In this document: positions 13,355-62,543 of the stretch, one piece after another
How positions within the stretch are numbered: position 1 is the first letter of the stretch
Layout: every line of letters starts with the position of its first letter
NCBI RefSeq assembly: GCF_003002825.1
Contig: NZ_PVTE01000020.1
Span: 1-64,000, forward strand
Length of the DNA stretch: 64,000 nucleotides
Direction: 5' to 3'
Source of the DNA: Spirosoma oryzae
Lineage (GTDB): Bacteria; Bacteroidota; Bacteroidia; Cytophagales; Spirosomataceae
The notes under the pieces: model-generated
The model's database searches: none
What the model was told of the DNA's origin: nothing
The model's input: only the letters and a program-made list of their open reading frames with translations
Position numbers and translations under genes: made by a program

Positions 13355-13440
13355 TTGAATGAACGAGTGACGGAATGATTGAATGAGTCTATGCGCCAGC
13401 CCACTCAATCATTCTATCATTCCATCACTCATTCATTCAA
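13355..13440. repeat. Word-repeat palindrome built on GAATGA
   Basis: Left arm 13355-13388 and right arm 13403-13440 are mirrored. Each is a run of GAATGA/GAGTGA-like words; the outer 23 bases pair with two mismatches and the inner part is offset by a four-base indel. It fills the gap between the convergent NtrC-like and LuxE-like genes, starting on the base after one stop codon and ending on the base before the other. The last codons of the minus-strand gene (AATGATTGAG) are made of the same word. Confidence 0.8.
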
Positions 13441-14547
13441 CTACTCAATCATTAAATTACATCCCCTGATGTCGGAATTGTCGAAACGGCCGATGACGCG
13501 GAAACTGCCGTCTGTACCGACGTATTGACCGAGGTCCTGCGTCTCGATAAAGGAGCAGGAGTCGAGGTTGGCGAGGTCGATGACGTTGATGCCTCCCGAT
13601 CGGGTATGGCCGTCCGGGTATATTGCAAAGGGGTCGTTGATGTCGCGCAGCAGGATTTGCAGCGTTGGGCTGGGTCGAAAAACGCCCTCCCCTGTTGAGT
13701 AAGCCTGGGAGAGCAATTCGGTCATGCCGTACTCCGAATGAATACGCGGGATGTGCAACCGGTCGGTCAGCAGTTGGTGTACCTCATCGCGCAGTAGTTC
13801 TTTCCGACGTCCTTTCATACCGCCCGTTTCCATAACAATCAGATTCGGATTGTGGCGCAGGAACGACAGATCGACGCCGGATTCCGCCCAGTCGAGCAGG
13901 CCAAACGTGACCCCGATCAGGAGTACGCGCGGGGCGTCGGGTTGCTCGCTCAACTGCTTCAGCCGCGCGGTCAATTCGCTGTGATCGTTCAGAAAAAAGC
14001 CCGATAGCGGGTGGGCGGAACGGCTCATAAATTGGCGAACCATATACACCAGCGACGAGTTATTTCGTTCAAGATACGACGGTAACAGTGCCAGAATCGC
14101 CAGCTGATCGAGAGGCCCGTAGGTCTCCTCGAAAATGCGGATACTGACAGCGTCATACAGCGCCGGGTCGGCAACATAGTGTCGGCTGGTTTGGTCGCCG
14201 GTCGTACCGCTACTGGCAAACGTCAGCAGCGAATCTGTCGGGTCCGGAATCGCCTGTGCGCTCGCTAAAACAGGTTGCGTTTTAAAGAAGCCAATGGGCA
14301 TGAACGGAATCTGACGCAGACTGGTAACGGTCTCGGACCGAACGTTCAGCAGGCCGAGGTAGCGGCTGTAGACCGGATTATACACGGCCTGATACCGGAA
14401 CACGTCCAGCGCCAATGTATCAAAAGAGGCCGTGTCGACGTGTATGATGCGCGAACGGAGGGCCTGCCGCCGGGCCGTAACATCGATAGAAAGCGGAAAC
14501 GGAAACGACAAAATAACGGATACGTTTATATTGCAACACGAGTACAA
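13441..14547 (-). CDS. LuxE-like acyl-protein synthetase domain protein
   Basis: Up to 368 residues. The adenylate-forming fold is seen in LTFASSGTTGDQTSRH (about 108-123), the METGGMKGRRKEL segment (about 238-250) and the SEYGMTELLSQAY segment (about 269-281), which match the LuxE/acyl-protein synthetase family that activates fatty acids with ATP. No luxC or luxD partner is nearby, so the natural substrate is not luciferase-related; some homologues belong to lipid or polysaccharide modification. The true start is uncertain: the first 25 residues read poorly and the ATG at 14547 would leave only four bases to the divergent lipoprotein gene. A start nearer 14460-14510 is likely. Confidence 0.82.
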   Translation of the reverse strand: MYSCCNINVSVILSFPFPLSIDVTARRQALRSRIIHVDTASFDTLALDVFRYQAVYNPVYSRYLGLLNVRSETVTSLRQIPFMPIGFFKTQPVLASAQAIPDPTDSLLTFASSGTTGDQTSRHYVADPALYDAVSIRIFEETYGPLDQLAILALLPSYLERNNSSLVYMVRQFMSRSAHPLSGFFLNDHSELTARLKQLSEQPDAPRVLLIGVTFGLLDWAESGVDLSFLRHNPNLIVMETGGMKGRRKELLRDEVHQLLTDRLHIPRIHSEYGMTELLSQAYSTGEGVFRPSPTLQILLRDINDPFAIYPDGHTRSGGINVIDLANLDSCSFIETQDLGQYVGTDGSFRVIGRFDNSDIRGCNLMIE

Positions 14548-14551
14548 CAGT

Positions 14552-15097
14552 ATGCGCCGGAAACAAATTCAACCGTACGTGCTCACGATAGGCATGGCTT
14601 TGCTGATGATGGGCTGTTTCAACGAGCCCAATTATTCCAATACGCCCGCTATCGACTTCCGTAGTATCTTCCCGTATGAGATTGCGGCCGGTTCCGGCGT
14701 CGGACAGTCCCGGCGCGACTCAATCGTAATTACGGTTGGGTTTAAGGATGGTGACGGCGATCTGGGGGTTTCGCTGCCCGTGTCGAAAGCCGATTCTGCC
14801 TTGTACACCAGTAACGGCGGTTGGGGGAATTACCGAATTCGTACGTTCCGGCTCGTGCGGGGGCAGTATCAGGAAGTAATCATTCCGGTTAACACTACGC
14901 TGTACTTCCCCGACCTGACGGCGAACAAGCCGAAAGGCCCCATCGAAGGAACGCTGGATTTCAGCACGATTTTTCAGTATGGTACCAGTTATCAGCTTTA
15001 CCCGGTCAAGTTCCAGATTCAGATTCGCGATCGCGCACTGAACGTTTCCAATACGATCGAAACCGATACGATTTCGGTACCATTCCCCCGAAACTAA
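14552..15097 (+). CDS. Predicted lipoprotein, unknown function
   Basis: 181 residues from the ATG at 14552. A short signal sequence ends in the lipobox MMGC, with the lipidated Cys at 22. The mature part has beta-rich segments, including SIVITVGFKDGDGDLGVSLP, which resembles the DGDGDLG motif seen in many Bacteroidota cell-surface lipoproteins of unknown role. There is no catalytic signature. A frame extension upstream to 14432 exists but overlaps the divergent gene and spoils the signal sequence. A strong hairpin follows the stop codon. Confidence 0.8.
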   Translation: MRRKQIQPYVLTIGMALLMMGCFNEPNYSNTPAIDFRSIFPYEIAAGSGVGQSRRDSIVITVGFKDGDGDLGVSLPVSKADSALYTSNGGWGNYRIRTFRLVRGQYQEVIIPVNTTLYFPDLTANKPKGPIEGTLDFSTIFQYGTSYQLYPVKFQIQIRDRALNVSNTIETDTISVPFPRN

Positions 15098-15111
15098 AGC
15101 GATTACGCATA

Positions 15112-15170
15112 CAGAAGCCGGGCCTGCGCCGAACGGATAGTACATCCATTCGGCGCAGGCCTGGCTTCTG
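15112..15170. terminator. Long hairpin between convergent genes
   Basis: Arms at about 15112-15139 and 15144-15170 pair over about 26 bases with few mismatches (CAGAAGCC...GCGCCGAA). It lies between the lipoprotein gene (plus) and the GDP-fucose synthase gene (minus) and probably terminates transcripts from both sides, though no strong U-tract is present. Confidence 0.6.
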
Positions 15171-15213
15171 TTAGTGGTTGGTAAAACAGTAGGCGCTACA
15201 AACCAGTGTTATG

Positions 15214-16155
15214 CTATTCTACGTACAGGACTTCGTTGGCCAGGAAATCCTGGTAGGTACGTTCGATACCGTCGCCGAGGTCGGTAGTGTGTTTCCAGCC
15301 CATTGCGTGCAGGCGCGACACGTCCATCAGTTTGCGGGGTGTACCGTCGGGCTTGCTGCTGTCCCAGCGTAATTCGCCCTCATAGCCGACCGCTTTCTGC
15401 ACCATTTCAGCCAGCTCACGAATCGTGACGTCTTCACCCGTACCGATGTTAACGAACTGCTCACCATCGTACGAATTCATCAGGTAAACACAGGCATCGG
15501 CCAGATCGTCGGCGTGCAGGAACTCGCGCCGGGGCGATCCCGTACCCCATACTTCAACGGTTGGCTGATCGTTGATCTTCGCTTCGTGGAATTTGCGAAT
15601 CAGCGCGGGTAGTACGTGCGAACCTTGCAGGTTGTAATTATCGTTAGGACCGTACAGGTTCGTCGGCATGGCCGAGATGAAATTGGCCCCGTACTGACTC
15701 CGGTAGGCTTCGCAAAGTTTGATCCCGGCAATCTTGGCGATGGCGTACGGCTCGTTGGTCGGTTCCAGAAAACCGCTGAGCAGGTATTCTTCCTTGAGTG
15801 GCTGCTCGGCCATTTTCGGGTAGATACACGATGAACCGAGGAACAGTAGTTTCGTGACACCCGATTTATAGGCACTATGGATGATGTTGGCTTCGATCAT
15901 CAGGTTATCGTACAGAAACTCGGCACGATAGATGTTATTGGCCAGGATGCCACCTACTTTAGCGGCTGCCAGGAAAACGTAGTCGGGGCGCTCGGTGTCA
16001 AAAAACGAAGCGACGGCTTCCTGATTCCGAAGGTCCAGCTCTGATGATGTACGGGTAATTATAGTTTCATGGCCGTCGGCTTCCAGCTTACGAACGATGG
16101 CCGAACCAACCATGCCCCGATGACCGGCAACATAGATGCGCGCTTGTTTTTCCAC
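15214..16155 (-). CDS. fcl: GDP-L-fucose synthase
   Basis: About 313 residues from a GTG at 16155; an ATG at 16206 would add 17 residues before the conserved [18 protein letters not shown]. The NADP-binding GHRGMVGS loop is followed by FLGSSCIYP and a catalytic YAIAKIAG (Tyr-x3-Lys of the extended SDR family). [10 protein letters not shown] and [15 protein letters not shown] are diagnostic of the epimerase/reductase that turns GDP-4-keto-6-deoxymannose into GDP-fucose, a precursor for surface glycans. The usual partner gmd is not in the window. Alternative identity as another GDP-sugar reductase is unlikely given the motifs. Confidence 0.94.
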
Positions 16156-16271
16156 AGCAGTTGTATTCTTATCTACACCGAATCCGTCGGCAAGGCGGTT
16201 GAACAAAATAATCGTGCTCCGGGGAGCGTTGCAAAATTAATAAACTTACTGTACTAATTGCCGCTGTAACC

Positions 16272-17255
16272 ATGACCTCACTGGCACATAACTACTTACT
16301 GGTCGGCGTTTTACTAGGATTTACATTAACGGGTAAGGCGCAGACGACCGAACCCGCTTCGCTGACCACAGCCGCCAAACCCGTACTGGAGTCGTCTGGC
16401 ACAACATCCATGCCCGCGTCGCTGACCACGCTGGGGCTGCCCAGTATGTCGTCGCTGAAAGAGCAAAAAGATGCGTACGTGGCCAGCGTAGCCGACCTGG
16501 GGTTGAAGCTGAAGCAGCTGAAAAAAATAAAGGAGAACCGGAAGTCGAAAGCCAAACTGTCGAAAACCGAATACGAAGGCCTTTCGATGATTAAAGCGTA
16601 CACGAAAATCGGTAGTGGCGACCGGACCATCGTCGAAGAGTTTCACGTGCTCAAAGACAATAATGCTGCTAAGCCAGCGACGTTCGTCCGCGACGTGTAC
16701 CGCTACTACCAGCGGACGGGACGGGTGTCGAGCGCGGTGGTGAAAGATGAAGGAAGCGGCTTACTGCTGCATGGTCCCTATAAGCGTTTCCAGAACGGCG
16801 ACCTGATCGAAGAAGGAAATTACTATGCCGGGATGAAAGACGGACGCTGGGAACGCTACGATCCGCACTTCATGCTGATCGATAAAACCCACTGGCAACG
16901 GGGTGTCCCGGCTGGATCGATCGTGTCATTCTACGATTCGACGCGTACCAAAATCAGGGAAATCGTACCGATGGAATATGGCAAGGTAAAAGGTACGTAC
17001 ATGGCTTTTTACGAAAATGGGCTGCTGGCGGAAGAAGGCAAGTACGACAACGGCATCAAGATTGGCCGTTGGACGGAGTTTTACCCGATTAGCCCCAGTG
17101 GTCGCCGGATGCGCAAGAAAGTAATGCAATACGGTACCGATCAGTGGGATACGAATTTTGAACCCTATGTTATCTCGGAGTGGGATGAAAAGGGGAAAGC
17201 TACCTACGAACGCGGTAAAGAGAAAGTCGTTGAGGAGGAAGAAGCCAGCAATTAG
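16272..17255 (+). CDS. Exported MORN-like repeat protein
   Basis: 327 residues with a signal peptide (cleavage near GKAQT). The first third is low-complexity Ser/Thr/Ala and Lys-rich helix. The C-terminal part carries repeats of the YwqK/MORN-variant type: LHGPYKRFQNGDLIEEGNYY, KDGRWERYDP, GTYMAFYENGLLAEEGKYD and IGRWTEFYP. Such repeats form beta-hairpin stacks at membranes or between proteins. Its role is unknown. It is monocistronic as far as the sequence shows, with an intrinsic terminator downstream at 17302. Confidence 0.85.
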   Translation: MTSLAHNYLLVGVLLGFTLTGKAQTTEPASLTTAAKPVLESSGTTSMPASLTTLGLPSMSSLKEQKDAYVASVADLGLKLKQLKKIKENRKSKAKLSKTEYEGLSMIKAYTKIGSGDRTIVEEFHVLKDNNAAKPATFVRDVYRYYQRTGRVSSAVVKDEGSGLLLHGPYKRFQNGDLIEEGNYYAGMKDGRWERYDPHFMLIDKTHWQRGVPAGSIVSFYDSTRTKIREIVPMEYGKVKGTYMAFYENGLLAEEGKYDNGIKIGRWTEFYPISPSGRRMRKKVMQYGTDQWDTNFEPYVISEWDEKGKATYERGKEKVVEEEEASN

Positions 17256-17301
17256 TCTTGCAGCGTCGGGTTGAAGCCCGGCGCGATCGAAACAGATACA
17301 G

Positions 17302-17331
17302 GCACCTGGTTTCAACCCGGTGCTTTTTTTT
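17302..17331 (+). terminator. Intrinsic terminator of the MORN-like gene
   Basis: Stem GCACC(TGG) at 17302 pairs with GGTGC at 17319-17323 and is followed by eight T (17324-17331). The stem and loop contain the GGTTTCAACCC unit, so the terminator is itself a member of the GGGTTGAAACCC repeat family; another copy lies at about 17264-17284. Confidence 0.8.
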
Positions 17332-17381
17332 GGGTCAGTGTACGTTAGGTACTACTTGCCAGACTATCACTGTAGTAAACG

Positions 17382-17409
17382 GCAACGCCGGATCGAAACC
17401 CGGCGTTGC
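17382..17409. repeat. Perfect 10-bp stem-loop of the CCGGGTT...family
   Basis: GCAACGCCGG (17382-17391) and its exact complement (17400-17409) flank an eight-base loop ATCGAAAC. It lies between the MORN-like gene (plus) and the TPR gene (minus), 55 bases from the latter's stop. It shares CCGG and GAAACC with the repeat copies just upstream. Confidence 0.7.
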
Positions 17410-17464
17410 ATGAGATTGCCTATATGCACTCAACCCCGTGGTACCATTGCAAACCGTAAGCTGG

Positions 17465-18259
17465 CTACTTAAATACCCCCTTGGGGTCCGGACGTTTGGC
17501 GATCAGGTCGCTCAGAAAGCTCAGATCGAGTATCGACATGTCGAGCTGACGCGCTTGATGGAAATAATCCCAGGCCTTGTCGTAATCGGCTTTCAGGTAG
17601 CTGACCAGCGACAGCTTCTGGAAGGAAGCCGCGTGAGCCGGGTCCTGCGTGACGATACGCTGAAGTTGCTGTTCGGCGTCGTCAAGCGTAGGGCGGTGAT
17701 GATCCTTCTGAAACTGCTTGATTTCGACCGTTGCCAGGTCGCCCATCAGTTCAACGTTTGTTCCGGCTGCATCGATGCCTTTGCGAAGCAGACGAACCGC
17801 TTCGGGTAAATTTTCTTTCTGGTACGATACGACACCCAGCCCCCAGTACGCATCGGCATTGCGGTCGTTGAGGAGCCATGCCAGATTGAAGCGGTGAGCT
17901 GCCGTGTCGAGCTGCCCGTCGGAAATGTAATCCCAGCCACGAGCCGCAAAAAATTCGCTGGCTTCGGTGCGGCTGGTGAAGTTCTGATCGCAGTCGTTCA
18001 GAAAATGAATTTCACGGTCGATCTGCTCGGCTGTTTTGGGGCGCTCACCAAACAACGGCATGATGCTAAGCGTCTCGATATCGATCGATTCCGAGCGGGT
18101 GTTATCTAATGTCGTACTAGTATGGCTGGCAACGTGGGCTGTGACCGGACGGGCCGACGACATCAACTGTCGTGGCTGGGCTGCAACCACCAGGGGCAGC
18201 AGGGCCAGAATCAGACTCCAGTGTCCCCGATTCCTACGAACATTCATACGGACAGTCAA
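17465..18259 (-). CDS. Exported TPR-containing protein
   Basis: 264 residues (a second ATG at 18247 is an equally good start). A signal peptide ends near VVAAQP. The mature part begins with a linker rich in Ser and Thr, and then helical pairs from about 95 to 250 show the TPR spacing: AYWGLGVVSYQKENLPEAVRLL, and ASFQKLSLVSYLKADYDKAW. TPR domains bind other proteins; the partner is unknown. Likely periplasmic. There is no close operon partner on this strand. Confidence 0.82.
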   Translation of the reverse strand: MTVRMNVRRNRGHWSLILALLPLVVAAQPRQLMSSARPVTAHVASHTSTTLDNTRSESIDIETLSIMPLFGERPKTAEQIDREIHFLNDCDQNFTSRTEASEFFAARGWDYISDGQLDTAAHRFNLAWLLNDRNADAYWGLGVVSYQKENLPEAVRLLRKGIDAAGTNVELMGDLATVEIKQFQKDHHRPTLDDAEQQLQRIVTQDPAHAASFQKLSLVSYLKADYDKAWDYFHQARQLDMSILDLSFLSDLIAKRPDPKGVFK

Positions 18260-18430
18260 GCAACGGATTGTCTGGTTAGAACGATACTCGTGTACTGGTT
18301 AGTACATTCGGTTTATGATTAGACGCGGTAGCTACGGTGGCACTGCTGCTGAAGCAATCGGCATGCCGGAAAGCCGGACCGGGTGCGTCAGCGAACGGGG
18401 TATAAGTATAGCCGATTTTTCATCGCCATC

Positions 18431-19822
18431 CTAACGCTTGCCACCCCGCGAACTGTTCCGTTTGGGGCCGGCTGATCGCGGTCCACCGGGCCGGGCGCTC
18501 TTGGGTCGACTGGCTGCGTTTTTGGCCGCTTTAACTTTTGCCTGCTGCGTGGCCCGGCCTGCTGCGGTATTCTTAAATTTTTTCTCGTGGAAAGCACCCA
18601 GGAAATTCGGGTCTTCTTTCCGGCGCTGTTCGTCAACTTCCCGGAGCATAGCCTGCTGCTCATCGAATGGAGTTTCGGTAATCTCTACCCCCGCAGGCAT
18701 AGGCTGACGCGGTACGGTCATCCGAATAATGCGTTCGATTTTTTCGACGTGATAGTTCTCCGACAGTGTAACAAACGTAATCGCCTGTCCCGTTCGGTTG
18801 GCCCGCCCGGTCCGGCCGATTCGGTGCACATAGTCTTCGTAAATCAGCGGCACGTCGAAGTTGATAACGTGGCTGACCTCAGCTACGTCGATACCCCGCG
18901 CGGCTACGTCGGTCGCTACCAGTATCCGCACGTTGCCCTCTTTGAAGGCTTCCATCGAATTGATACGGGTATTCTGCCCTTTGTTGGCGTGAATCACCCG
19001 CACCTGACCGGGGTCGAACACCTTACGAGTCAAGAACTTGTAAATGTTCTCGGCCGAGGTTTTGGTCCGGGCAAACACGATGACGCGCTGAAAATCATCC
19101 TGCGTCAGCAGATGCTCAAGCAGATTGACTTTCGTGCGGAAGTTGGGAACGTCGTAGATCACCTGATCGACCATGTCGGCCGTCGATGCCTGCGGGGTCA
19201 CTTCGATCTTTACCGGCGCTTCCAGAAATTCGGCCGACAGGCGTTCCACGCGACCGCCGAACGTAGCAGAGAACAGGAGGTTTTGCCGCTTTGTCGGAAT
19301 GATTTCCAGGATGGACCGGATCTGGGGCATAAAACCCATGTCCATCATCTTGTCGGCTTCGTCGAGTACCAGCGTGCGAATGTCTTTCGTAATCAGTTCA
19401 CCGGCCCGGTAAAGGTCCATAAACCGGCCCGGTGTCGCTACGACCAGATCGACGCCCTGCTGCAAGGTTTCGATCTGCGTTTTGGGCCCCAGCCCACCGT
19501 ACGCAACCAGGTGCCGCAGGTCGGTATATTTGGCCAGGTCGGTAACGGACTTACTGATCTGAATGGCGAGTTCGCGGGTAGGGGCCAGAATGAGCGCCCG
19601 TGGGTTTTTACCCTGCGCGTATTTGATTTTCATCAGCAGCGGCAACAGGTAGGCCGCTGTCTTGCCCGTTCCGGTCTGCGCAATGCCCAGCACGTCGTGG
19701 TTGCCCAGACTGATCGGGATGGTTTTTTGCTGAATCGGTGTCGGTTCGGTATAACCCAGATCGGCAACGGCGTTGAGCAACTGCCGGTTTAACTCAAATT
19801 GGTCGAAAGACGTAATATCCAT
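18431..19822 (-). CDS. DEAD-box RNA helicase, RhlE type
   Basis: 463 residues. All helicase motifs are present in order: Q motif (FDQFELNRQLL with PTPIQQ), Walker A AQTGTGKT (about 43-50), PTRELA, TPGR, DEAD (in VLDEADKMMDMGF), SAT, the ARGIDV segment and HRIGRTGR. The core ends near 375 and is followed by a basic, low-complexity tail rich in Lys, Arg, Ala and Gly that probably binds RNA. Such enzymes unwind short RNA duplexes in ribosome assembly and mRNA turnover, often important in the cold. It is a single gene; RhlE/CsdA subtype naming is approximate. Confidence 0.94.
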   Translation of the reverse strand: MDITSFDQFELNRQLLNAVADLGYTEPTPIQQKTIPISLGNHDVLGIAQTGTGKTAAYLLPLLMKIKYAQGKNPRALILAPTRELAIQISKSVTDLAKYTDLRHLVAYGGLGPKTQIETLQQGVDLVVATPGRFMDLYRAGELITKDIRTLVLDEADKMMDMGFMPQIRSILEIIPTKRQNLLFSATFGGRVERLSAEFLEAPVKIEVTPQASTADMVDQVIYDVPNFRTKVNLLEHLLTQDDFQRVIVFARTKTSAENIYKFLTRKVFDPGQVRVIHANKGQNTRINSMEAFKEGNVRILVATDVAARGIDVAEVSHVINFDVPLIYEDYVHRIGRTGRANRTGQAITFVTLSENYHVEKIERIIRMTVPRQPMPAGVEITETPFDEQQAMLREVDEQRRKEDPNFLGAFHEKKFKNTAAGRATQQAKVKAAKNAASRPKSARPGGPRSAGPKRNSSRGGKR

Positions 19823-20853: not shown

Positions 20854-20868
20854 CAAATTACCCCGCTT

Positions 20869-24064: not shown

Positions 24065-24085
24065 TTGGTCGGTAGTCGGTTTACG

Positions 24086-24150
24086 GTTTACAGTAGTCGG
24101 TTTACGGTCGTGCGGTAGCCACTGAAAACCGTAAACCGACTACTGTAAAC
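24086..24150. repeat. Word-repeat palindrome built on GTTTACGGT
   Basis: A perfect 23-bp inverted repeat (24086-24108 and 24128-24150). Each arm contains GTTTAC and GTCGGTTTACGGT words, and the left flank (24069-24085) carries a further copy. It occupies the gap between mog and the glycogen synthase gene, both on the minus strand, so it could terminate the upstream transcript. Similar words recur at 37484, 54375, 60370, 61937 and 62481. Confidence 0.85.
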
Positions 24151-37479: not shown

Positions 37480-37483
37480 CTAC

Positions 37484-37565
37484 GGTATACGGTTTTCGGT
37501 GATTGGTTTACGGTAATACCGCCCTGAAACGCTCACCGAGAACCGTATACCGAAAACCGTATACC
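37484..37565. repeat. Word-repeat palindrome between membrane protein and yceI
   Basis: A perfect 17-bp inverted repeat (GGTATACGGTTTTCGGT at 37484-37500, complement at 37549-37565) with partial inner copies (GGTTTACGGT, ACCGTATACC). It starts five bases after one stop codon and ends three bases before the ATG of yceI, so any transcript through the locus carries it. It could attenuate expression of yceI. Confidence 0.8.
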
Positions 37566-37567
37566 TT

Positions 37568-38098
37568 ATGAAATTCCTGCTCGTACTCCTTTGCCTCGCC
37601 ATGCCGATGGCAAAGCGAAAAATCATGGCCGACAAAAGTACGTCGACAGTGACCTACTCGGCCAAACACCCGCTGCACAAGTGGGATGGCGTCAGCCACG
37701 ACGTGAACTGCGCCATGATCTACAACGACGAAACGAAGCTACCGGAAAGCGTAGCGGTATCGATCAAAGTAGCGTCGTTCGACAGTGACAACAACAACCG
37801 GGATTCACACGCGATGGAAGTGCTCGACGGGATTAAATACCCGAACGTTACGTTCGTCAGCTCCGACATCAAGCCGGGTTCCGACGGTCAGTTGGTGGCG
37901 AAAGGAACGCTTACGTTCCACGGAATCGCCAAGGCTATCACGGTCCCGGTTACGCGAAAGGAGGCCGGTAACACGATGACGCTGACCGGCGAGTTTCCGG
38001 TTAGCCTGACTGACTACAAAATTGAGCGCCCATCGTTGATGGGTATGAAAACGGAAGATGATCTGTTGCTGAAAATCAACGCTGTATTCAAACTGTAA
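37568..38098 (+). CDS. yceI: YceI family protein
   Basis: 176 residues. A short N-terminal hydrophobic segment (about 2-14) precedes the lipocalin-like YceI barrel: VTYSAKHPLHKWDGVS, then FDSDNNNRDSHAMEVLDG and YPNVTFVSS, KGTLTFHGIAKAITVPV and FPVSLTDYKIERPSLMGM. YceI proteins bind polyisoprenoid lipids in the periplasm and are often next to b561-type cytochromes; this supports the reading of the preceding membrane protein. It is followed by a perfect terminator hairpin. Symbol given by family, not by proven orthology. Confidence 0.9.
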   Translation: MKFLLVLLCLAMPMAKRKIMADKSTSTVTYSAKHPLHKWDGVSHDVNCAMIYNDETKLPESVAVSIKVASFDSDNNNRDSHAMEVLDGIKYPNVTFVSSDIKPGSDGQLVAKGTLTFHGIAKAITVPVTRKEAGNTMTLTGEFPVSLTDYKIERPSLMGMKTEDDLLLKINAVFKL

Positions 38099-39376: not shown

Positions 39377-39389
39377 GGGGGGAGGAGTT

Positions 39390-39480
39390 AGGAAGTTGTA
39401 AGGTCGTAAAGTTATACGTTGTAGCGTTGCTACCGACAGACGGACTGACGCGTCAGCACGCTACGACGCCATAACAACTA
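39390..39480. repeat. Word-repeat palindrome with a GGACTGACGCGTCAGCA centre
   Basis: Arms made of GTTGTA/CGTAAAG and CGTTGTAGCG words (left, about 39394-39431) mirror CGCTACGACG and ATAACAACTA (right, about 39455-39480). The 17-base centre at 39442-39458 occurs exactly in the palindrome at 41965-42079 (42020-42036). It lies upstream of the MFS gene and downstream of the deaminase gene (both minus). Confidence 0.7.
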
Positions 39481-41944: not shown

Positions 41945-41964
41945 AATTGTAAAAAAAGCTATAG

Positions 41965-42079
41965 AGTTGTAGGGTTATAAAGTTGTAAAGTTGCTGGCGC
42001 ATGTGGCAATCGGCCGGATGGACTGACGCGTCAGCAACTTTACATCCCTACGACTTTATAACTTTACAACCCTACAACT
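41965..42079. repeat. Word-repeat palindrome built on AACTTTACA
   Basis: Left arm 41965-41996 and right arm 42032-42079 mirror each other; both consist of 8-9-bp words (AGTTGTAGGG, TTATAAAG, AACTTTAC, AACCCTAC). The right arm carries extra words, so the arms differ in copy number. The centre (42020-42036) is identical to the one at 39442-39458. The element fills the gap between DUF2480 and the M28 gene. Confidence 0.85.
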
Positions 42080-42091
42080 CCAAAACTCCGA

Positions 42092-44990: not shown

Positions 44991-45007
44991 TGGAAAAAGG
45001 GGTTATT

Positions 45008-45128
45008 GACAGGATTACAGGATTAGCAGGATTTCAGTATTACAAGTGGTTCCGATGGTATCATAGCAATGGACCCGATACGACTACGATGAGTTGTCTG
45101 ATAATCCTGTCAATCCCGTAATCCTGTC
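45008..45128. repeat. Word-repeat palindrome built on AGGATTACA between divergent genes
   Basis: Left arm 45008-45034 (GACAGGATTACAGGATTAGC and following bases) pairs with right arm 45103-45128 over 26 bases with three mismatches. The word AGGATT is repeated in each arm. Unlike the others it lies between two divergently transcribed genes (purN and the ABC ATPase), so a purely terminator role is unlikely. Confidence 0.85.
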
Positions 45129-45165
45129 GAAAAAACTCTGACGGGGGCAAATTACAACTTTTGCC

Positions 45166-53627: not shown

Positions 53628-53740
53628 GTTTGTGTAGCCTGGACGTCCACGTCCGGGTGCCCGTTAGGGCAACAACGCCATGCGGTAGCTAATTGGTCGC
53701 TCCGCGCCCACCCGGACGTGGACGTCCAGGCTACACAAAC
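53628..53740. repeat. Perfect 32-bp inverted repeat with a variable-arm layout
   Basis: GTTTGTGTAGCC...GTCCGGGTG at 53628-53659 has an exact complement at 53709-53740, with a 49-base loop. Arm words contain GGACGTCCACGTCC. The loop/right arm border holds a 23-base segment (53688-53710) that recurs, inverted and nearly exact, at 60432-60455 in the next family member. It lies between the VWA gene and rnhB. Confidence 0.9.
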
Positions 53741-53783
53741 AGCGGTATACTGAATACTGAAAACCGTAAACGACAAACCCAAC

Positions 53784-54374: not shown

Positions 54375-54489
54375 GGTTTTCGGTTTACCGTATACAGTTT
54401 ACGGTGCGTAGTTCGTAGTTTTCGTACTTCCCAGGTAAAACCGGACAGAAAAACCGAAAACCGTATACCGAAAACTGATTACCGAAACC
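54375..54489. repeat. Word-repeat palindrome built on CGGTTTAC/CCGTATAC
   Basis: Left arm 54375-54405 (GGTTTTCGGTTTACCGTATAC and AGTTTACGGT) mirrors the right part 54449-54489 (AACCGAAAACCGTATACCG, GATTACCGAAACC). The centre (about 54406-54440) is unrelated. It ends on the base before the ATG of the deaminase gene and starts three bases after the rnhB stop. Confidence 0.8.
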
Positions 54490-56943: not shown

Positions 56944-56951
56944 TATTTTTG
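56944..56951 (+). promoter_or_regulatory. -7 box TATTTTTG upstream of the polyprenyl synthetase
   Basis: Exact TAnnTTTG match 32 bases before ATG 56984. The -33 partner is not clear. Confidence 0.45.
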
Positions 56952-56983
56952 AGCCACAACCTACGTGGCCGCTGGCCCTACCC

Positions 56984-57955
56984 ATGCGTATAGACTCCTT
57001 CGTCGACGTCCTTCAAACCGAACTGACTACTACCCAATACGGGCAGCACCCGCCCGAACTATACGACCCCATTCGGTACATTATGAGCCTGGGTGGCAAG
57101 CGACTGCGGCCGCTGCTGACACTGATGGGGACTTACCTGTTCACCGACGACTGGGAGAAGGCAGTACGCCCGGCACTGGCTGTCGAGGTGTTCCACAACT
57201 TCACCCTCATGCATGACGACATCATGGATCAGGCACCATTGCGCCGGGGCCATCTGACCGTGCACGAGAAGTGGAACCCCAACACCGCCATCCTGTCAGG
57301 CGACGTGATGCTGGTTAATGCATTCGAACTGATGCTGAACGTAGAGGCTGGCGCGCTGAAAACGGTCATGACGCGTTTCAGTCGGACGGCTGCCGAAGTA
57401 TGCGAAGGGCAGCAACTGGACATGAATTTCGAAACCCGCTGGGACGTTACCGAGACGGAGTACATCGACATGATTCGGCTGAAAACATCGGTGCTGCTGG
57501 GCTTTGCCCTTGAACTGGGGGGGCTGATTGCCGGTGCCGATGCGGAAACGACCCAACTGCTCTACGACGCAGGCGTCAACGTCGGGATTGGGTTTCAACT
57601 GAAAGATGATCTGCTCGACGTCTACGGTGATCCGGCTAAGTTCGGCAAACAGGTGGGCGGGGATATTATCGCCAATAAAAAGACGTTTCTGCTGATCGAA
57701 GCGCTAGAAAAAGGCCAGGGGCCCTTGCGCAGTGAACTGGACGACTGGCTCCGGCGCACCGATTTCGACAAAGCGGAAAAGGTACGGGCCGTCACGTCGA
57801 TTTACGATCAGCTGAATATTCGTCAGCTGACCGAACAGCGCATCGACGACTATTTCGCTCGTGGTTTCGACTGCTTCGCCCGCATCGATGCCGACCCCGC
57901 CCGCAAGGCGGTACTGCTCGATTTCGTACAGCAACTGATCGGACGCGAAAGCTAA
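56984..57955 (+). CDS. Polyprenyl diphosphate synthase
   Basis: 323 residues. Both Asp-rich motifs of trans-prenyltransferases are present: DDIMDQAPLRRG (first, about 73-84) and DDLLD (second, about 209). LGGKRLRPLLTLMG near the start is typical. The short motif spacing points to an octaprenyl or similar long-chain synthase making the quinone side chain or the lipid carrier. Chain length cannot be fixed from sequence. Rhomboid and LytTR genes follow and may share its transcript. Confidence 0.93.
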   Translation: MRIDSFVDVLQTELTTTQYGQHPPELYDPIRYIMSLGGKRLRPLLTLMGTYLFTDDWEKAVRPALAVEVFHNFTLMHDDIMDQAPLRRGHLTVHEKWNPNTAILSGDVMLVNAFELMLNVEAGALKTVMTRFSRTAAEVCEGQQLDMNFETRWDVTETEYIDMIRLKTSVLLGFALELGGLIAGADAETTQLLYDAGVNVGIGFQLKDDLLDVYGDPAKFGKQVGGDIIANKKTFLLIEALEKGQGPLRSELDDWLRRTDFDKAEKVRAVTSIYDQLNIRQLTEQRIDDYFARGFDCFARIDADPARKAVLLDFVQQLIGRES

Positions 57956-58034
57956 CTAATACCAGCAATGCCGGGTTATTGGTTTGTGCGGTCGGCTACC
58001 GGCGCACAACCGCAGTACACAACAAATTGCCTGC

Positions 58035-58658
58035 ATGACCACCATTCTGCTTATCATCACTGTTACAGCCCTGACCAGTTTTCTGGCCTGGCGCAGCCCG
58101 TCGCTGCTGGACAGCTGGCTCATGAATCCCTACCGGATTTATAGCCGGGGTGAATACCATCGATTCCTGACATCGGGCTTTATCCACGCCGACGTCGGGC
58201 ATCTGCTGTTCAACATGCTTAGCCTGTATTTCTTCGGCGGAATAATCGAGCAGATCTTTTCGGCGCTGTTCGGCGGGCTCGGTCCGATCTACCTGATCGG
58301 TTTTTACCTGGCGGGTATCCTGGTATCCGACATTCCCAGCTACCTGAAATACCGCTTCGATCCGGCCTACAACTCGCTGGGGGCGTCGGGGGGCGTTTCG
58401 TCGGTGTTGTTCGCGGCTATCCTGTTCAGCCCGCTGTCGAAAATTTACATTTATTTCATTCCCATCGGTATTCCGGGCTTCATCTTCGGCGCGCTCTACC
58501 TGGCGTATTCGTACTACGAATCGAAGCAGAACCGGGGTAATGTCAACCACGACGCGCACTTGTACGGAGCTATCTTCGGGATCGTGGCCATGATCGCGAT
58601 CTATCCGCAGGTGTTGCCCCAGTTTATCGAGCAAATTGCCAGCTGGCGTATTTTCTAA
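58035..58658 (+). CDS. Rhomboid family intramembrane serine protease
   Basis: 207 residues from ATG 58035 (the frame is open to 57984, but that adds a non-typical tail). The catalytic Ser is in LGASGGVSS and the His in VNHDAHLYGAIFG; the GFIHADVGHLLFNM segment with conserved His and Asn completes the fold. About six helices are predicted. It cuts membrane proteins within their transmembrane helix; substrate unknown. It precedes the LytTR gene by 6 bases, so they are probably co-transcribed. Confidence 0.92.
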   Translation: MTTILLIITVTALTSFLAWRSPSLLDSWLMNPYRIYSRGEYHRFLTSGFIHADVGHLLFNMLSLYFFGGIIEQIFSALFGGLGPIYLIGFYLAGILVSDIPSYLKYRFDPAYNSLGASGGVSSVLFAAILFSPLSKIYIYFIPIGIPGFIFGALYLAYSYYESKQNRGNVNHDAHLYGAIFGIVAMIAIYPQVLPQFIEQIASWRIF

Positions 58659-58664
58659 CCATTT

Positions 58665-59540
58665 ATGTTCCGGCTGCTTCGTCAACCGTATCCGATCGAG
58701 GAGCCTGCTGGCGTGGCCCTGCGTCGCGCTGCGCTGATCGGCCTGTTCGTCGGCCTGTTTTTGCTGATCTTCCAGCCGTTCGGTATCGCAACCTGGCAAA
58801 CGCCGTACAAGACACCGAAGATTCTGGGCTATGGCGTCGTCAGCTTCGCCGTGACAGCACTGCACTTTCTAGTATGGCCCCGGCTGTTCCCGGCCGCTTT
58901 CTCGGATCGCGTCTGGACGGTGGGAAAAGCGATTCTGCTGATCGTTACCAACATCCTGCTTATTACGGTCGCCAACCGGCTTTATCTTGTTGCACTGACT
59001 GGCATTAAACCCGGTATGAGTAGTTGGCTGAGCATGCTGGCGATTACTTTTCTGATTGGGGTCTTCCCATCGGTCGGTGCTGTCGTAGCCGGCTATGTGA
59101 TTCGCCTGCGGCAGTATGTCCGGCAGGCGGCCGAGCTACCCGTACATACACCACCTGCTGTTGCCGAATCGGTTCACACCGAACTGACTGAGGCTACATC
59201 GCTAACGCTGGTTGCCGACAACGAGAAAGATACGATTACACTCCAGCCCGGCGAATTGCTGTACATCGAGTCGAGCGATAACTACTGCACGGTGGTGTAC
59301 CTGAAAAACGGACAGCCCATAAAGCCGCTCCTGCGCAGTAGCCTGAGCCGGCTGGAAGGGCAGATCGACCGGGCGGACATTGTTCGTTGCCACCGGTCGT
59401 TTGTCGTTAACCTTGATCGGGTCGAAAAGGTAACCGGCAATGCACAGGGCTACAAGCTGCATTTGTTCGACGGGCAGTTTCAGATTCCGGTTGCCCGCAA
59501 ATACAACGACAGCCTGGTGGCGCAGCTGAAAGCCTTGTAA
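58665..59540 (+). CDS. Membrane-bound LytTR-type transcription regulator
   Basis: 291 residues. Four membrane helices (about 25-45, 48-70, 85-105 and 118-140) form a sensor part, and the LytTR DNA-binding domain follows (about 190-291): TLQPGELLYIESSDNYCTVVYL, then LSRLEGQIDRADIVRCHRSFVVNLDRVEKV (shown in part). LytTR factors in this phylum often respond to envelope or lipid signals. The 6-base distance from rhomboid suggests the protease could control it, which is inference. Confidence 0.9.
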   Translation: MFRLLRQPYPIEEPAGVALRRAALIGLFVGLFLLIFQPFGIATWQTPYKTPKILGYGVVSFAVTALHFLVWPRLFPAAFSDRVWTVGKAILLIVTNILLITVANRLYLVALTGIKPGMSSWLSMLAITFLIGVFPSVGAVVAGYVIRLRQYVRQAAELPVHTPPAVAESVHTELTEATSLTLVADNEKDTITLQPGELLYIESSDNYCTVVYLKNGQPIKPLLRSSLSRLEGQIDRADIVRCHRSFVVNLDRVEKVTGNAQGYKLHLFDGQFQIPVARKYNDSLVAQLKAL

Positions 59541-59615
59541 ATCAGCCTTCCCGTTTGTCCCATTGGCCATTTTGGGTTACCAAACGCCCCAAACGCTGTC
59601 AGACAGCCCTTTAAA

Positions 59616-59647
59616 TTGCACCCGCCGGATGAGTTGCGCTACGTTTG
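59616..59647 (+). promoter_or_regulatory. Candidate promoter of the 59676 gene
   Basis: TTG at 59616-59618, a 21-base spacer and TACGTTTG at 59640-59647, an exact TAnnTTTG. The start codon at 59676 follows 28 bases later. Both elements and spacing fit the Bacteroidota consensus, making it the best promoter in the window. Confidence 0.55.
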
Positions 59648-59675
59648 TCCCAACGAATCGCAAACACAAACGGTC

Positions 59676-60368
59676 ATGCATACGCTTATTATCGCCATCA
59701 CCATCATTCACGTTCTCGCCGGTACAGTTGCCTTATTGGTTGGTCTGGTCGCTATGTTTTCCAAGAAAGGCGCTAAAGTCCACAACCGTAGCGGACTGAT
59801 CTACGTCTGGGCAATGATTGTCGTCGCCGTGACCGCCTTACCGATGTGTGTGCTGCAATCGTTCAACCTGTTCCGCCTGTTTCTGACGGGTATCGCCGTG
59901 CTGAGTTTTTACCTCTGCATGACCGGCTGGCGGGCTACCAAACAAAAGAAATCCGGCCCCACCCAGGCCGACCGACTGCTGACTTATGGAACGCTGGTCG
60001 TTAGCGTTGGAATGATGGGTTTTGGTGCTTACCTGCTGACAGACGGTGTGTCGGTGTTTGCCGTACTGTTTTCGTTCTTCGGTTTCCTGACGTTCCGGAA
60101 CGCGTGGCATGACGCCAAATCGTTTGGTCACGCACCCGAAAAAATGCATTGGTTTTACCACCACATTGCCCGGATGGGGGCATCGTACATCGCCACGTTC
60201 ACCGCCTTTCTGGTCAACAATATGTACCGGATGATGCCAGCGGGAACACCTGAATGGGTCGGTACGATCGGCTGGATTGCCCCAACACTGGTGGGTGGCC
60301 TGCTTATCGCCCGCACCATCCGACACTACAAACAGAAATTCGACCGCCCCAAGACAACCTTGGCGTAG
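59676..60368 (+). CDS. Six-to-seven-helix membrane protein, DUF2306-like
   Basis: 230 residues from ATG 59676; the 20-residue extension back to 59616 overlaps the promoter. About seven hydrophobic helices are predicted with conserved His near helix ends (KVHNRSGLIYVWAM, WFYHHIARMGASYIATFTAF). The arrangement resembles DUF2306 integral membrane proteins of unknown function with possible heme or metal ligands. It is single. The next 150 bases hold a palindrome. Confidence 0.75.
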   Translation: MHTLIIAITIIHVLAGTVALLVGLVAMFSKKGAKVHNRSGLIYVWAMIVVAVTALPMCVLQSFNLFRLFLTGIAVLSFYLCMTGWRATKQKKSGPTQADRLLTYGTLVVSVGMMGFGAYLLTDGVSVFAVLFSFFGFLTFRNAWHDAKSFGHAPEKMHWFYHHIARMGASYIATFTAFLVNNMYRMMPAGTPEWVGTIGWIAPTLVGGLLIARTIRHYKQKFDRPKTTLA

Positions 60369-60517
60369 ACGGTTTTCAGTATACGGTTTACGGTGGCCAC
60401 CACGCAGTGTAGCACAGACCTCCAGGTCTGGTGGGCGCGACAGCGACCAATTAGCAGCTACCTGATTCACAGTGGTGTCAGGTCTGGAGCGCCAGCTCGG
60501 CCCGACCTGACACCACT
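60367..60517. repeat. Palindrome cluster sharing a centre with 53688
   Basis: The cluster contains AGACGG..GTATACGGTTTACGGT words (60367-60393), a short stem at 60415-60430 (CAGACCT/AGGTCTG) and a 14-bp perfect inverted repeat (60471-60484 and 60504-60517, AGTGGTGTCAGGTC). The segment 60432-60455 matches 53688-53710 in reverse orientation. It overlaps the end of the preceding gene by two bases and ends ten bases before the stop of the SGNH gene (minus). Confidence 0.8.
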
Positions 60518-60526
60518 CACAAACAA

Positions 60527-61261
60527 CTACCGCTTCAGCATCGCTTCCACAGTCGGCCGGGCTTTTTCAGCCCACTGTTTCATCTGCCGGCCGGAGTAAT
60601 GAAGCCCATCATTGGCGAACTGACTGGCATCGCCTGCAGCCTGCCGGGTCAGGGGCGTAATGTCGACGAACGAGATCCCCGCTTTGTCGCATTCTTCCTG
60701 AGCGGTGGTATTGAACGCGTCGATTTCGTTGGCAATCTGTTCCTGATTTCGTCCACTCGCGTACGGCGATTTACCCCAGTCGGGAATCGACAGCACAACG
60801 ACACGGGCGGGCCGGTTACCCGCAAATCGGATGGCCGTTTGCAGCAGGTTGCGAAACTCCGTCCGGTAGCGATCGACCGACTGCCCCCGGTACTGATTGT
60901 TGACCCCGATCAGCAGTGATACCAGGTCGTACGTTTTCGTGTTGTTGGCGGCTTTGATCGCATCCTGCAACTCCGCCGTCGTCCAGCCAGTTCGGGCGAT
61001 AATATCGGGGTTCATAACGTTGCTATTGTCCTGACGAAGCATGCCCGCCAGCTGAACGGACCACCGGTCGGCCGCGTCGACGCTTTCCCCGATCGTATAG
61101 GAGTCGCCGAGTGAGAGAAAGGAATAGGTCGCTGTTGTGGTAGCGGGCTCTGTGAGCATGGGTGAGGTTCCGGCAATGGGTTTCGTAAGCGTGGGCGACG
61201 ACTGGTTGCAGGCAAGTACCAGCGTCAGGGCAGCAAGCTGGGCGATAAATTGAAAAAGCAT
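60527..61261 (-). CDS. SGNH/GDSL hydrolase lipoprotein
   Basis: 244 residues. A signal sequence ends in a lipobox VLAC (Cys18). The hydrolase blocks are clear: LGDSYT (block I, catalytic Ser), the SLLIGVNNQY segment (block III, Asn) and DGLHYS (block V, Asp and His). GDSL enzymes cut esters of lipids, sugars or phospholipids; the target is unknown. Anchored outside the cytoplasm by its lipid. Divergent from dps by 163 bases. Confidence 0.9.
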   Translation of the reverse strand: MLFQFIAQLAALTLVLACNQSSPTLTKPIAGTSPMLTEPATTTATYSFLSLGDSYTIGESVDAADRWSVQLAGMLRQDNSNVMNPDIIARTGWTTAELQDAIKAANNTKTYDLVSLLIGVNNQYRGQSVDRYRTEFRNLLQTAIRFAGNRPARVVVLSIPDWGKSPYASGRNQEQIANEIDAFNTTAQEECDKAGISFVDITPLTRQAAGDASQFANDGLHYSGRQMKQWAEKARPTVEAMLKR

Positions 61262-61340
61262 TGAATCGAATGAATTAAGCTACCAATGATATACGAGTCG
61301 GAGCCGGTTTTGGACTGACTTTAAACAGCCATTAAATCTA

Positions 61341-61359
61341 GTTTGTCTACCGAACAAAC
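61341..61359. promoter_or_regulatory. Small inverted repeat upstream of dps
   Basis: GTTTGT (61341-61346) and ACAAAC (61354-61359) form an inverted repeat with a seven-base spacer, 65 bases before the dps start. It could be an operator for a stress regulator; the match is short and may be chance. Confidence 0.3.
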
Positions 61360-61423
61360 CCGTATGGGCCTGGTTTTCTCCACAAACGAATCTGAACACA
61401 AACGGATAAATTACCCATAGATC

Positions 61424-61930
61424 ATGGCCGATATCAATCAGGTGAAAGAACTCGATACCCCGAACGACTTAGCGGAAAAAGGCCGGGAGAAAGTGGTCGA
61501 TGCGCTCAACAAACTCGTTGCCGACGCATTCGCGCTTTACATCAAAACAAAGAACTACCACTGGCATATGTCGGGTCGGCACTTCCGTGACTATCACCTG
61601 CTGCTCGACGAGCAGGGCGATCAGATCTTCGCAACCATCGACCCACTAGCTGAGCGAGCCCGAAAAATTGGTGGTAACACCATCCGGTCGGTGGCGCACA
61701 TCGCTCAGTTGCAACGAGTGAAAGACAACGACGAAGATTTCGTGGCCCCGAAAGACATGCTGCTCGACCTGCTGAACGAGAATAAAAAGATGGCAAAGAA
61801 CATGCGGGACACGCACAAAATCGCCGACGATGCCGAAGACGTAGCGACGGCCAGCCTGCTCGAAAACTACATCGACGAAACCGAGCGTCGCAGCTGGTTC
61901 CTCTTCGAAACCACGCGGGACATTAACTAA
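61424..61930 (+). CDS. dps: Dps family ferritin-like DNA protection protein
   Basis: 168 residues. The ferroxidase ligands of the Dps dimer are present: His in KNYHWHMSG, then Asp and Glu in LLDEQGDQIFATID. Helical content and length fit a dodecameric Dps. It oxidises and stores iron and shields DNA during oxidative or starvation stress. The lysine-rich N-terminal tail seen in E. coli Dps is replaced by a mixed-charge tail. Single gene, with a palindrome just after its stop. Confidence 0.93.
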   Translation: MADINQVKELDTPNDLAEKGREKVVDALNKLVADAFALYIKTKNYHWHMSGRHFRDYHLLLDEQGDQIFATIDPLAERARKIGGNTIRSVAHIAQLQRVKDNDEDFVAPKDMLLDLLNENKKMAKNMRDTHKIADDAEDVATASLLENYIDETERRSWFLFETTRDIN

Positions 61931-61936
61931 AGTATC

Positions 61937-62015
61937 CAGTTTACGGTATTTAGTTTACGGTGTATCGGTCGTATCATAGTACCTCCGAAAACTGTAAACC
62001 GAATACCGTAAACTG
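61937..62015. repeat. Word-repeat palindrome built on AGTTTACGGT
   Basis: Left arm 61937-61961 (CAGTTTACGGTATTTAGTTT onward) pairs with right arm 61991-62015 over 25 bases with three mismatches. Each arm carries two copies of GTTTACGGT or its variant. It lies between dps and the NUDIX gene, both plus. Confidence 0.85.
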
Positions 62016-62022
62016 TTTTTAT

Positions 62023-62475
62023 ATGAAAGTACGGCCTTCTGCGCTGATCTGGCGCGTACAGGATAGCCAAACCGAAGTGTTGCTGATGCGCTATTGCTAT
62101 GGCGGCCAGGATGTGTTTGCCCTGCCCGGCGGTAACCCCGACCGGGGCGAAATTTTACCCGAAACAATCGTCCGCGAACTACACGAGGAACTCGGTGTGC
62201 GCGTCGACGTGGGGGAGATGATTCTTGCGGGCGAAATGCTGCTAACGGAGCGAAACGACGATGTACTGCATGTCGTTTTTGCCGCCCGTAACCTTCAGGG
62301 AACCCCCGAACTAAATCCCGCCGAAACGTCGGCCCTCGAACTGGTCTGGAAACCCATAACTGACATATCCCAGCTCAATCTCTATCCCAACGTTGGTGCC
62401 CGGCTTCTGCCGTGGTTCAGCAGTGCCACCTACCTGGGCTACATCGGCCGTATCGAGCAGCGGTACTTCGGATAA
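62023..62475 (+). CDS. NUDIX hydrolase
   Basis: 150 residues from ATG 62023; a longer frame from 61960 runs through the palindrome and is rejected. The Nudix box GX5EX7REUXEEXGU is intact in the segment starting GNPDRGEILPE and ending RELHEELG (about 33-55). It cleaves nucleoside diphosphates linked to another group; the substrate is not predictable. It is followed by a palindrome that borders the convergent M28 gene. Confidence 0.9.
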   Translation: MKVRPSALIWRVQDSQTEVLLMRYCYGGQDVFALPGGNPDRGEILPETIVRELHEELGVRVDVGEMILAGEMLLTERNDDVLHVVFAARNLQGTPELNPAETSALELVWKPITDISQLNLYPNVGARLLPWFSSATYLGYIGRIEQRYFG

Positions 62476-62480
62476 GTGTA

Positions 62481-62543
62481 TTCGGTTTATGGGTTACGGT
62501 GGCTGACGCCAGAGTACTCGCGCGTCAACCACCGTGAACCGAA
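62481..62543. repeat. Word-repeat palindrome between convergent genes
   Basis: Left arm 62481-62509 (TTCGGTTTATGGGTTACGGT then GGCTGACGC) and right arm 62522-62543 (GCGTCAACCACCGTGAACCG) mirror with one indel. The centre has TGACGC and GCGTCA split by 13 bases, reminiscent of the TGACGCGTCA core at 39445 and 42023. It fills the gap between the NUDIX and M28 genes. Confidence 0.8.

Follow-up and report, generated by a model that had tools for sequence, protein, structure and literature searches.

Foldback (FB/NOF) elements of Drosophila have long inverted arms built from short tandem units; most copies lack a gene, and some carry one in the loop. Miniature inverted-repeat transposable elements (MITEs) are non-autonomous, have inverted repeats and are related to gene-bearing parents, while the short tandemly repeated repetitive (STRR) sequences of cyanobacteria are intergenic tandem heptamers that form direct arrays without mirrored arms or a gene. 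Here we describe intergenic palindromes of Spirosoma oryzae whose arms are tandem arrays of a short word, and which probably belong to several families of small fold-back elements, as copies that have no gene and are not autonomous. These families resemble the intervening sequences (IVSs) of 23S rRNA. The DNA analyzed, called the window below, is a stretch of 64,000 nt from contig NZ_PVTE01000020.1; the whole genome comprises 6.57 Mb in 75 contigs.

Two bacterial systems invite comparison. The 23S rRNA IVS of Coxiella, in the parts of PMC4990558 that treat it, is a sequence of about 430 nt, called selfish, that lies in helix 45 and is cut out by RNase III; it holds an open reading frame (ORF) for S23p that is preceded by tandem heptamers, and its terminal inverted repeats form a stem of 28 bp. 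A Xanthomonas relative of S23p is a homopentamer (PMC4990558). Repetitive extragenic palindromic (REP) sequences are characterized in the corresponding passages of PMC3733652 as repeats of 20-40 bp with a family consensus; Bacteroidetes are named there for the CGTC repeats, which have no known transposase, and are absent from the phyla given for the GTAG repeats.

Mirrored arrays of tandem words

An earlier reading of the window, made from its letters alone (the sequence-only reading), had described long mirrored arms in about a dozen gaps, most of them built from a tandemly repeated word of 6-10 bp. The window and twenty 20-kb stretches of the same genome, 464 kb together, were scanned by seeding and ungapped extension, with two dinucleotide shuffles as the chance control. 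The scan gave 78 inverted repeats scoring at least 16, including 51 scoring at least 20, and the shuffles gave none; mirrored arms are indeed present in the listed gaps. Two of the 74 repeats scoring at least 17 are centred inside an ORF call. Clear opposed tandem arrays occur at eight of the twelve named gaps, so that most do have tandem-word arms. The exceptions are a decayed palindrome at 39388, a one-sided array at 60369, a hairpin of fixed sequence at 53628, and GC-rich palindromes at 5861 that are not word-like. The unit length first proposed was too broad, as measured units are 7, 8 or 8/9 bp. At a strict cut-off the 464 kb hold 24 word palindromes, or 52 per Mb.

Unit anatomy was measured for the arms of four families in 1.264 Mb of the genome (19%). 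That the word changes between loci while the architecture is kept, as the sequence-only reading held, proved right, but the words recur as six genome-wide families. F1 (GTWTWCR) is spaced at 7 bp in 124 of 139 cases, F2 (GARTGANN) at 8 in 63 of 84 (with a spacing of 4 in 16, partly overlapping matches), F3 (GTTRTANR) at 8 in 35 of 39, and F4 (CAGGAT) at 8 or 9 in 30 of 30; F5 (GAAAGA/GAAGAA) and F6 (ACAGAG/ACGGAG) complete the set. Across the six families, left and right arrays oppose each other in 76 pairs, beside which 68 plus-strand arrays are partnerless at the threshold set. An arm holds 2-5 units, with a median of about 3.

Arms match those at other loci of their family nearly as well as they match their own partner, the own-partner and cross-locus values being 0.53 and 0.50 for F1, 0.63 and 0.55 for F2, 0.58 and 0.52 for F3, and 0.71 and 0.63 for F4. 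Both exceed the values for unit-shuffled arms, a lenient control in that the register is lost as well. Loci at which the own partner does better than 95% of the others number 2 of 29 in F1, 8 of 19 in F2, 2 of 10 in F3, 4 of 10 in F4, 2 of 4 in F5 and 1 of 4 in F6. Conservation thus lies in the unit more than in a master sequence; the words fall into families that span the genome, and what is local is mainly the order of unit variants. Two further features were counted among word elements with 7/8-bp units from the window, the other stretches of this genome and the panel of relatives: G exceeds C in the 5' arm of all 53, and the tip motif CTGACGC/GCGTCAG, with a C-to-T variant allowed, occurs in 12 of the 53 against 1.0 expected.

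Small genes between the arms

A profile search of the S. oryzae genome found three genes of PF05635 (four-helix bundle, 4HB; 23S_rRNA_IVP) and four of PF13366 (GxxExxY). Flanks of 300 bp were compared by gapped alignment with cut-offs of at least 15 and at least 18. All seven genes have arms around them at the lower cut-off and six at the higher; arms around five of the genes were found directly, and those around the other two at a lower threshold or by eye. A genus set was assembled from 36 genomes, with loci for 30 matches per family plus the remaining loci of S. oryzae. In this set, arms of at least 15 flank 23 of 32 4HB loci, 31 of 33 GxxExxY loci, and 23 of 30 loci of a third family, DUF559; arms of at least 18 flank 19, 28 and 22 of them. 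Mismatched flank pairs reach 18 in 8% (4HB), 10% (GxxExxY) and 23% (DUF559) of cases, and 15 in 10%, 15% and 33%, the DUF559 rate being high because C-rich arms are common to its loci. In a control of 105 ORFs of 100-160 aa, drawn from the window, the other stretches of this genome and 18 relatives, three reach 18 and six reach 15. The two top scorers of this control are themselves 4HB genes, and one further 4HB gene in it scored just 13.

The association extends beyond the genus. Among Bacteroidota 4HB loci, 25 of 30 have arms of at least 15 and 15 of 30 arms of at least 18, against 9% and 5% of cross pairs and 1.7% and 0 of shuffles. From 27 plasmid records, 14 named loci were fetched; arms of at least 17 occur at nine of ten cyanobacterial 4HB loci, with a lag of 7 in eight of those nine, and at three of four GxxExxY loci (Gemmatirosa, Bernardetia and Sphingomonas), whereas 2.9% of shuffles for this set reach 15. 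The gene-bearing 4HB elements carry matches to Pfam 23S_rRNA_IVP and to TIGR02436. The sequence-only reading could name no maker for the palindromes; the field is now narrowed, since such arms bracket 4HB, GxxExxY and DUF559 genes.

Several observations on the genes and their surroundings stand apart from these counts (labels beginning with L or G are our handles). A large-loop scan of 101 sequences returned periodic-arm pairs around 4HB genes at L003 and L017, a GC-rich pair around an ORF of L030 that we take to be DUF559-like, and five other pairs without tandem words; an arm pair around a 554-aa ORF in L095 was judged spurious. On a Pseudanabaena plasmid (L330) the 4HB gene lies between cas6 and cas4, and on a Sphingomonas plasmid (L342) the GxxExxY gene lies between fabD and fabG; in both cases the element stands between co-directional genes. 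Many DUF559 genes at L167-L196 lie between C-rich palindromes of the same class as those at 5861-6095 of the window, and at several loci (L168, L170 and L193, for example) a complete palindrome stands on either side of the gene. An identity as a defence system was dropped after a PADLOC search with four proteins gave no match.

Period, word and gene

The period follows the gene family. Where arms reach 15, 4HB loci show a best lag of 7 or 8 in 22 of 23 genus and 24 of 25 phylum cases, GxxExxY loci one of 9 or 10 in 25 of 31, and DUF559 loci, with GC-rich arms, one of 5 or 6 in 17 of 23. Similar proteins also have similar arms: in the genus, mean arm similarity is 0.60-0.85 for proteins above 60% identity and about 0.25 below 45% identity. 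Among pairs of at least 60% amino acid identity with unrelated outer flanks, the word is shared in 18 of 23 (GxxExxY 16 of 19, genus 4HB 2 of 2, phylum 4HB 0 of 2), although the sharing pairs amount to about four independent groups, the clearest of them formed by L149, L154, L156, L157 and L159, and entry was limited to loci with arms of at least 15 and a called ORF (20 of 32, 22 of 30 and 27 of 33 loci). The L149 flank has a match in just one other genome. The outer ends of five GxxExxY elements are abrupt where they could be located. The same word at different loci, together with these abrupt ends, therefore argues that gene and arms travel together.

Palindromes of the window

RNA folding of nine window elements gave z-scores from -2.2 to -10.2. 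An F2 palindrome at 13344..13452 (unit 8 bp; z -8.3) lies in the gap of two convergent ORFs, and an F1 palindrome at 24069..24150 (unit 7 bp; z -7.8) in that of co-directional ORFs. The next F1 palindrome, at 37481..37568 (z -7.3), is retained with one compensated pair change in a near relative, the Spirosomataceae metagenome-assembled genome L002, whose DnaN is the closest found outside this genome (99% identical, with Spirosoma species next) and which may be the same organism as G025. The gap between dnaN and the next conserved gene holds a decayed F3 palindrome at 39388..39480, with CTGACGCGTCAG close to its tip and an RNA fold that is equalled by 5 of 200 shuffles (z -2.2); palindromes of other words occupy this site in most Spirosoma relatives. 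A second F3 palindrome, at 41957..42088 (unit 8 bp; z -9.0), also has CTGACGCGTCAG close to its tip and is missing from L002, which has different sequence in its place. The F4 palindrome at 45003..45133 (CAGGATTN(N), of the GxxExxY class; z -6.4) compares with G018 as arms retained around a different loop, and by eye its 5' arm is nearly identical to that of the GxxExxY element L107.

Toward the end of the window the arrangement is more composite. A REP-type hairpin at 53628..53740, with perfect 32-nt arms of TGTAGCC type and no tandem words, is nested in F1 remnants; the right-arm remnant adjoins it at 53741..53775, and both F1 arms are present here in the relative G025. The F1 palindrome at 54375..54487 (z -3.1) has counterparts with a GTTTAACG-type word in G025 and G018. 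At 60369..60395 an F1 left arm stands without a clear partner, followed by a REP-type block at 60409..60517 that consists of TGTAGCACAGACC.. plus a GGTGTCAGGTC.. hairpin. The F1 palindrome at 61937..62015 (z -10.2), followed by five T, is retained in G025 and G018, with one compensated change between those two, and the site of the F1 palindrome at 62483..62541 (tip GGCTGACGC; z -3.9) has another F1 arrangement in G025 and a CACAGAG-type palindrome in G018. The GC-rich palindromes at 5861..6095, of CCCCCTAAAGGGGG type, are of the kind that brackets DUF559 genes in relatives.

Other palindromic sequence occurs in this genome and its relatives. A perfect intergenic hairpin of at least 15 pairs, with a AGACCTGACAGGTTT arm, lies at 38105-38141 of the window between genes that we take to be YceI-like and MFS-like, and is retained in L002 with paired changes. 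A further dispersed family of the same genome, TGTCATCCCGA..GGATCTTC, has copies at L084:12751-12844, L085:1140-1223, L089:13333-13421, L091:19265-19372 and L092:17853-17943. A small GC-rich module of CGGGGCCGCCCGGCGG or CCGGGTCGCCGGAGCG type sits within one or both arms of word palindromes in L023 and L026 (near 9830), and also in the arms behind dnaN at L008, L009, L013 and L019.

Placement and history of the sites

Placement relative to genes was built on simple ORF calls, not gene prediction: 22 placed palindromes lie in 15 co-directional, 6 convergent and 1 divergent gaps, with 182, 54 and 54 such gaps available. Behind the dnaN stop codon, an inverted repeat starts within 70 nt in 27 of 33 panel loci, at a threshold lowered to 12 for this site and without a shuffle control of its own; the repeats of Fibrella and Fibrivirga resemble plain hairpins. 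Grouped by dnaN DNA identity, pairs with unrelated arms at this site number 9 of 12 at 0.90 or more, 1 of 6 between 0.84 and 0.90, and 76 of 89 between 0.80 and 0.84; the pairs share lineages. More generally, where orthologous flanks are at least 85% identical, an inverted repeat is found on both sides of the comparison in 58 of 71 pairs.

The sequence-only reading had proposed a comparison of matched loci in relatives, and that comparison finds palindromes present, absent and swapped. The palindrome of L032 is replaced by about 15 unrelated bases in L020/L021. The right flank of the GxxExxY element L107, which in S. oryzae stands between two long ORFs, was found in 34 genomes, and the junction was traced in 25 of these. 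The GxxExxY gene of G025 at this place is another one, broken and with other words. An inverted repeat reaches the set threshold in nine genomes, and in five of the nine its arms are word arms of the 4HB class (L355, L357, L359, L362 and L368); three more have word arrays by eye (L350, L356 and L360), and L361 has a plain hairpin. The junction is palindrome-free, with 44-59 nt only, in L353, L354, L367 and L369, while five genomes have another gene there and one has an unalignable left flank. In L349, L358, L363 and L364, this junction carries a gene for a protein with GVIFDFDGTLADT, which we take to be HAD-like.

Within retained palindromes, changes in the arms were compensated in 14 cases, one-sided in 18 and broken in none, where 0.56 compensated changes were expected; the twelve comparisons behind these counts were picked by hand and share lineages. 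Between two close Spirosoma species, the same arms enclose an inverted loop (L005:11130-11196 and L033:11129-11199; loop alignment score 108 inverted, 82 direct). One palindrome lies nested inside another at 53628 and in L026.

Relation to known elements

The gene-bearing members resemble the 23S rRNA IVS, as far as PMC4990558 describes it, in the 4HB/S23p family, in the terminal inverted repeats and in the tandem heptamers beside the ORF, and the inverted repeats around an S23p/4HB ORF that mark an IVS are found at the 23 of 32 genus and 25 of 30 phylum loci counted above. They differ from it in that the Spirosoma elements lie between protein genes, are mostly gene-less, come in many word families and also involve GxxExxY and DUF559. 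An rRNA location was discarded, as an Rfam search of the window gave no match over the gathering score; the window elements lie between ORFs.

Like MITEs, the word palindromes are non-autonomous, have inverted repeats and are related to gene-bearing parents: ends are shared with a gene-bearing element for F4 (45003 against L107) and F2 (against L103/L104), though not, within this genome, for F1 and F3. Unlike those of MITEs, their arms consist of unit arrays that lack a master sequence, and the gene of the parent does not code for a known transposase; no consistent target duplication was seen at five GxxExxY elements. With Drosophila FB elements they share inverted arms of tandem units and an optional gene in the loop, a likeness of architecture for which we claim no homology, since FB elements are eukaryotic and have longer arms and an unrelated gene. 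STRR sequences are alike in being tandem heptamers between genes, and might prove identical with the 4HB arms seen in Nostoc and Calothrix.

With REPs and bacterial interspersed mosaic elements (BIMEs), as these are outlined in PMC3733652, the word palindromes have in common that they are short, extragenic and mostly behind genes. Their tip GCGTCAGC contains CGTC, as in the CGTC REPs of that account, which may be coincidence. What word loci share is mainly the repeated unit and the polarity of the 5' arm (G over C in all 53), instead of the consensus common to copies that defines REPs there. The dispersed non-coding family that the sequence-only reading set apart from ordinary REPs is thus borne out for the word palindromes, while two places on its list, 53628 and the region around 60367, are composite or of REP type. 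A hairpin family of the form TGTAGCC..GACC.. flanks the sole Y1 match in the genome, a candidate REP-associated tyrosine transposase (RAYT), at L001:978-1101 and 1801-1927, with similar hairpins at 53628-53740 and 60409-60517 of the window; because it flanks this gene, the family looks like a GTAG-type REP in Bacteroidota.

Alternative explanations

The palindromes might be host 3'-end hairpins, either terminators or mRNA stabilisers, that grew by slippage and were mirrored by template switching at stalled forks, with the genes as accidental passengers. Such an origin would suit their position behind stop codons (15 co-directional, 6 convergent and 1 divergent of 22), the inverted repeat behind dnaN in 27 of 33 loci, the strong RNA folds, and the 14 compensated changes and one loop inversion. 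It sits poorly with unit families that are common to loci and species, with a period tied to gene family across phyla, and with a gene that recurs together with its word at unrelated loci while relatives have palindrome-free junctions. Moreover, none of 49 sites found by a terminator-like pattern in three scans (37000-46000, 53000-63000 and 13000-25000) overlaps the nine word palindromes there, the pattern being unable to match loops longer than 8 nt. Templated or slipped copying, suggested by the sequence-only reading as the builder, was rejected as the main source of the mirror because an arm matches its own partner barely better than it matches arms at other loci, hardly at all so in F1; it is kept as a secondary process, with some local correction, on account of the compensated changes and the loop inversion. 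We consider a host-hairpin origin unlikely.

Homing of the small genes into the loops of palindromes of other origin, as IVSs sit in rRNA helices, would account for the nested palindromes at 53628 and L026, and the Coxiella IVS does sit in helix 45 of 23S rRNA (PMC4990558, in the part that describes it); against it, the word period depends on the gene family, and similar genes that lie at different loci share a word, their outer ends being abrupt, so that we hold it to be distinctly improbable. We would give still less credence to the idea that a Y1 (RAYT) or other transposase moves the palindromes as REP/BIME or MITE repeats of the ordinary kind. The palindromes are extragenic and behind genes, and a hairpin family does surround the single Y1 match of the genome, but this is the fixed-sequence TGTAGCC family and not a word family, and word copies have no master sequence. 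RAYT was accordingly rejected as the maker.

A proposed fold-back element with an optional gene

The reading that we find the most convincing, and probably correct, is that the palindromes are IVS-like fold-back elements that have no gene. In a complete member, one short gene, whether 4HB/S23p, GxxExxY of PDDEXK_3, or DUF559, would lie between two opposed arrays whose unit is peculiar to the family: 7/8 bp where the gene is 4HB, 9/10 bp where it is GxxExxY, and C-rich where it is DUF559. Gene and arms would be mobile as one unit. Gene-less copies, 24 in 464 kb, outnumber the seven gene-bearing copies of 4HB and GxxExxY in the whole genome. They would settle just behind stop codons, often occupying most of a co-directional gap, at sites that in relatives may be empty or re-occupied by another family. 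They fold into long hairpins in transcripts and may have a role as 3'-end structures; such a role would account for the tolerance of these sites. We infer that the gene product recognizes the word or mobilizes the DNA; by reading the unit array it might drive copying or insertion. A homopentameric 4HB ring might even wind the array around itself, a guess that arms of 2-5 units (median about 3) fit only loosely.

Several results weigh against this proposal. No transposition was observed in the comparisons, and to our knowledge neither 4HB nor GxxExxY is a transposase. No consistent target-site duplication was seen in a set of five GxxExxY elements, for one of which the pattern did not locate the right end. 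This genome has no gene-bearing copy of F1 or F3, both of them common in the window; the closest such copies are in other species (L122 and L128 for F3; L125 and L130, F1-like). The gene-less loops of its word elements gave no convincing gene remnant, two weak matches (E 0.029 and 0.006) being judged chance. Arms fall below 15 at 9 of 32 4HB loci in the genus, some of them partial or at contig ends, and at 2 of 33 GxxExxY and 7 of 30 DUF559 loci, and two of the 14 plasmid loci (L335 and L343) have no arms. Both phylum 4HB pairs at different loci carry another word, as do 17 of 46 same-locus pairs (GxxExxY 8 of 21, genus 4HB 1 of 11, phylum 4HB 8 of 14), the latter implying that the word can drift while the gene stays.

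Implications

More tentatively, the elements may form a cross-phylum class whose ends act as a code: a small non-transposase protein, either the pentameric 4HB ring or a GxxExxY protein of the PD-(D/E)XK kind, would recognize arrays of a degenerate 7- or 9-bp unit, as DNA or as hairpin RNA, and the word could change along with the protein. Hundreds of gene-less copies would then serve as interchangeable 3'-end hairpins that displace one another, and the 23S rRNA IVSs would be the branch that settled in rRNA. A literature search whose scope left aside most subscription journals and bioRxiv preprints returned no title or abstract linking tandem-word palindromes with 4HB, GxxExxY or DUF559. The proposal joins such palindromes, three gene families that are common though functionally obscure, and the IVSs of 23S rRNA. 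If it is true, the 4HB, GxxExxY and DUF559 families would be parts of selfish stem-loop elements, and the palindromes would gain a source. The spread of IVSs, an old question, would become testable in harmless environmental bacteria. The comparisons also show that close species can exchange the whole hairpin that follows a conserved gene, dnaN being one case.

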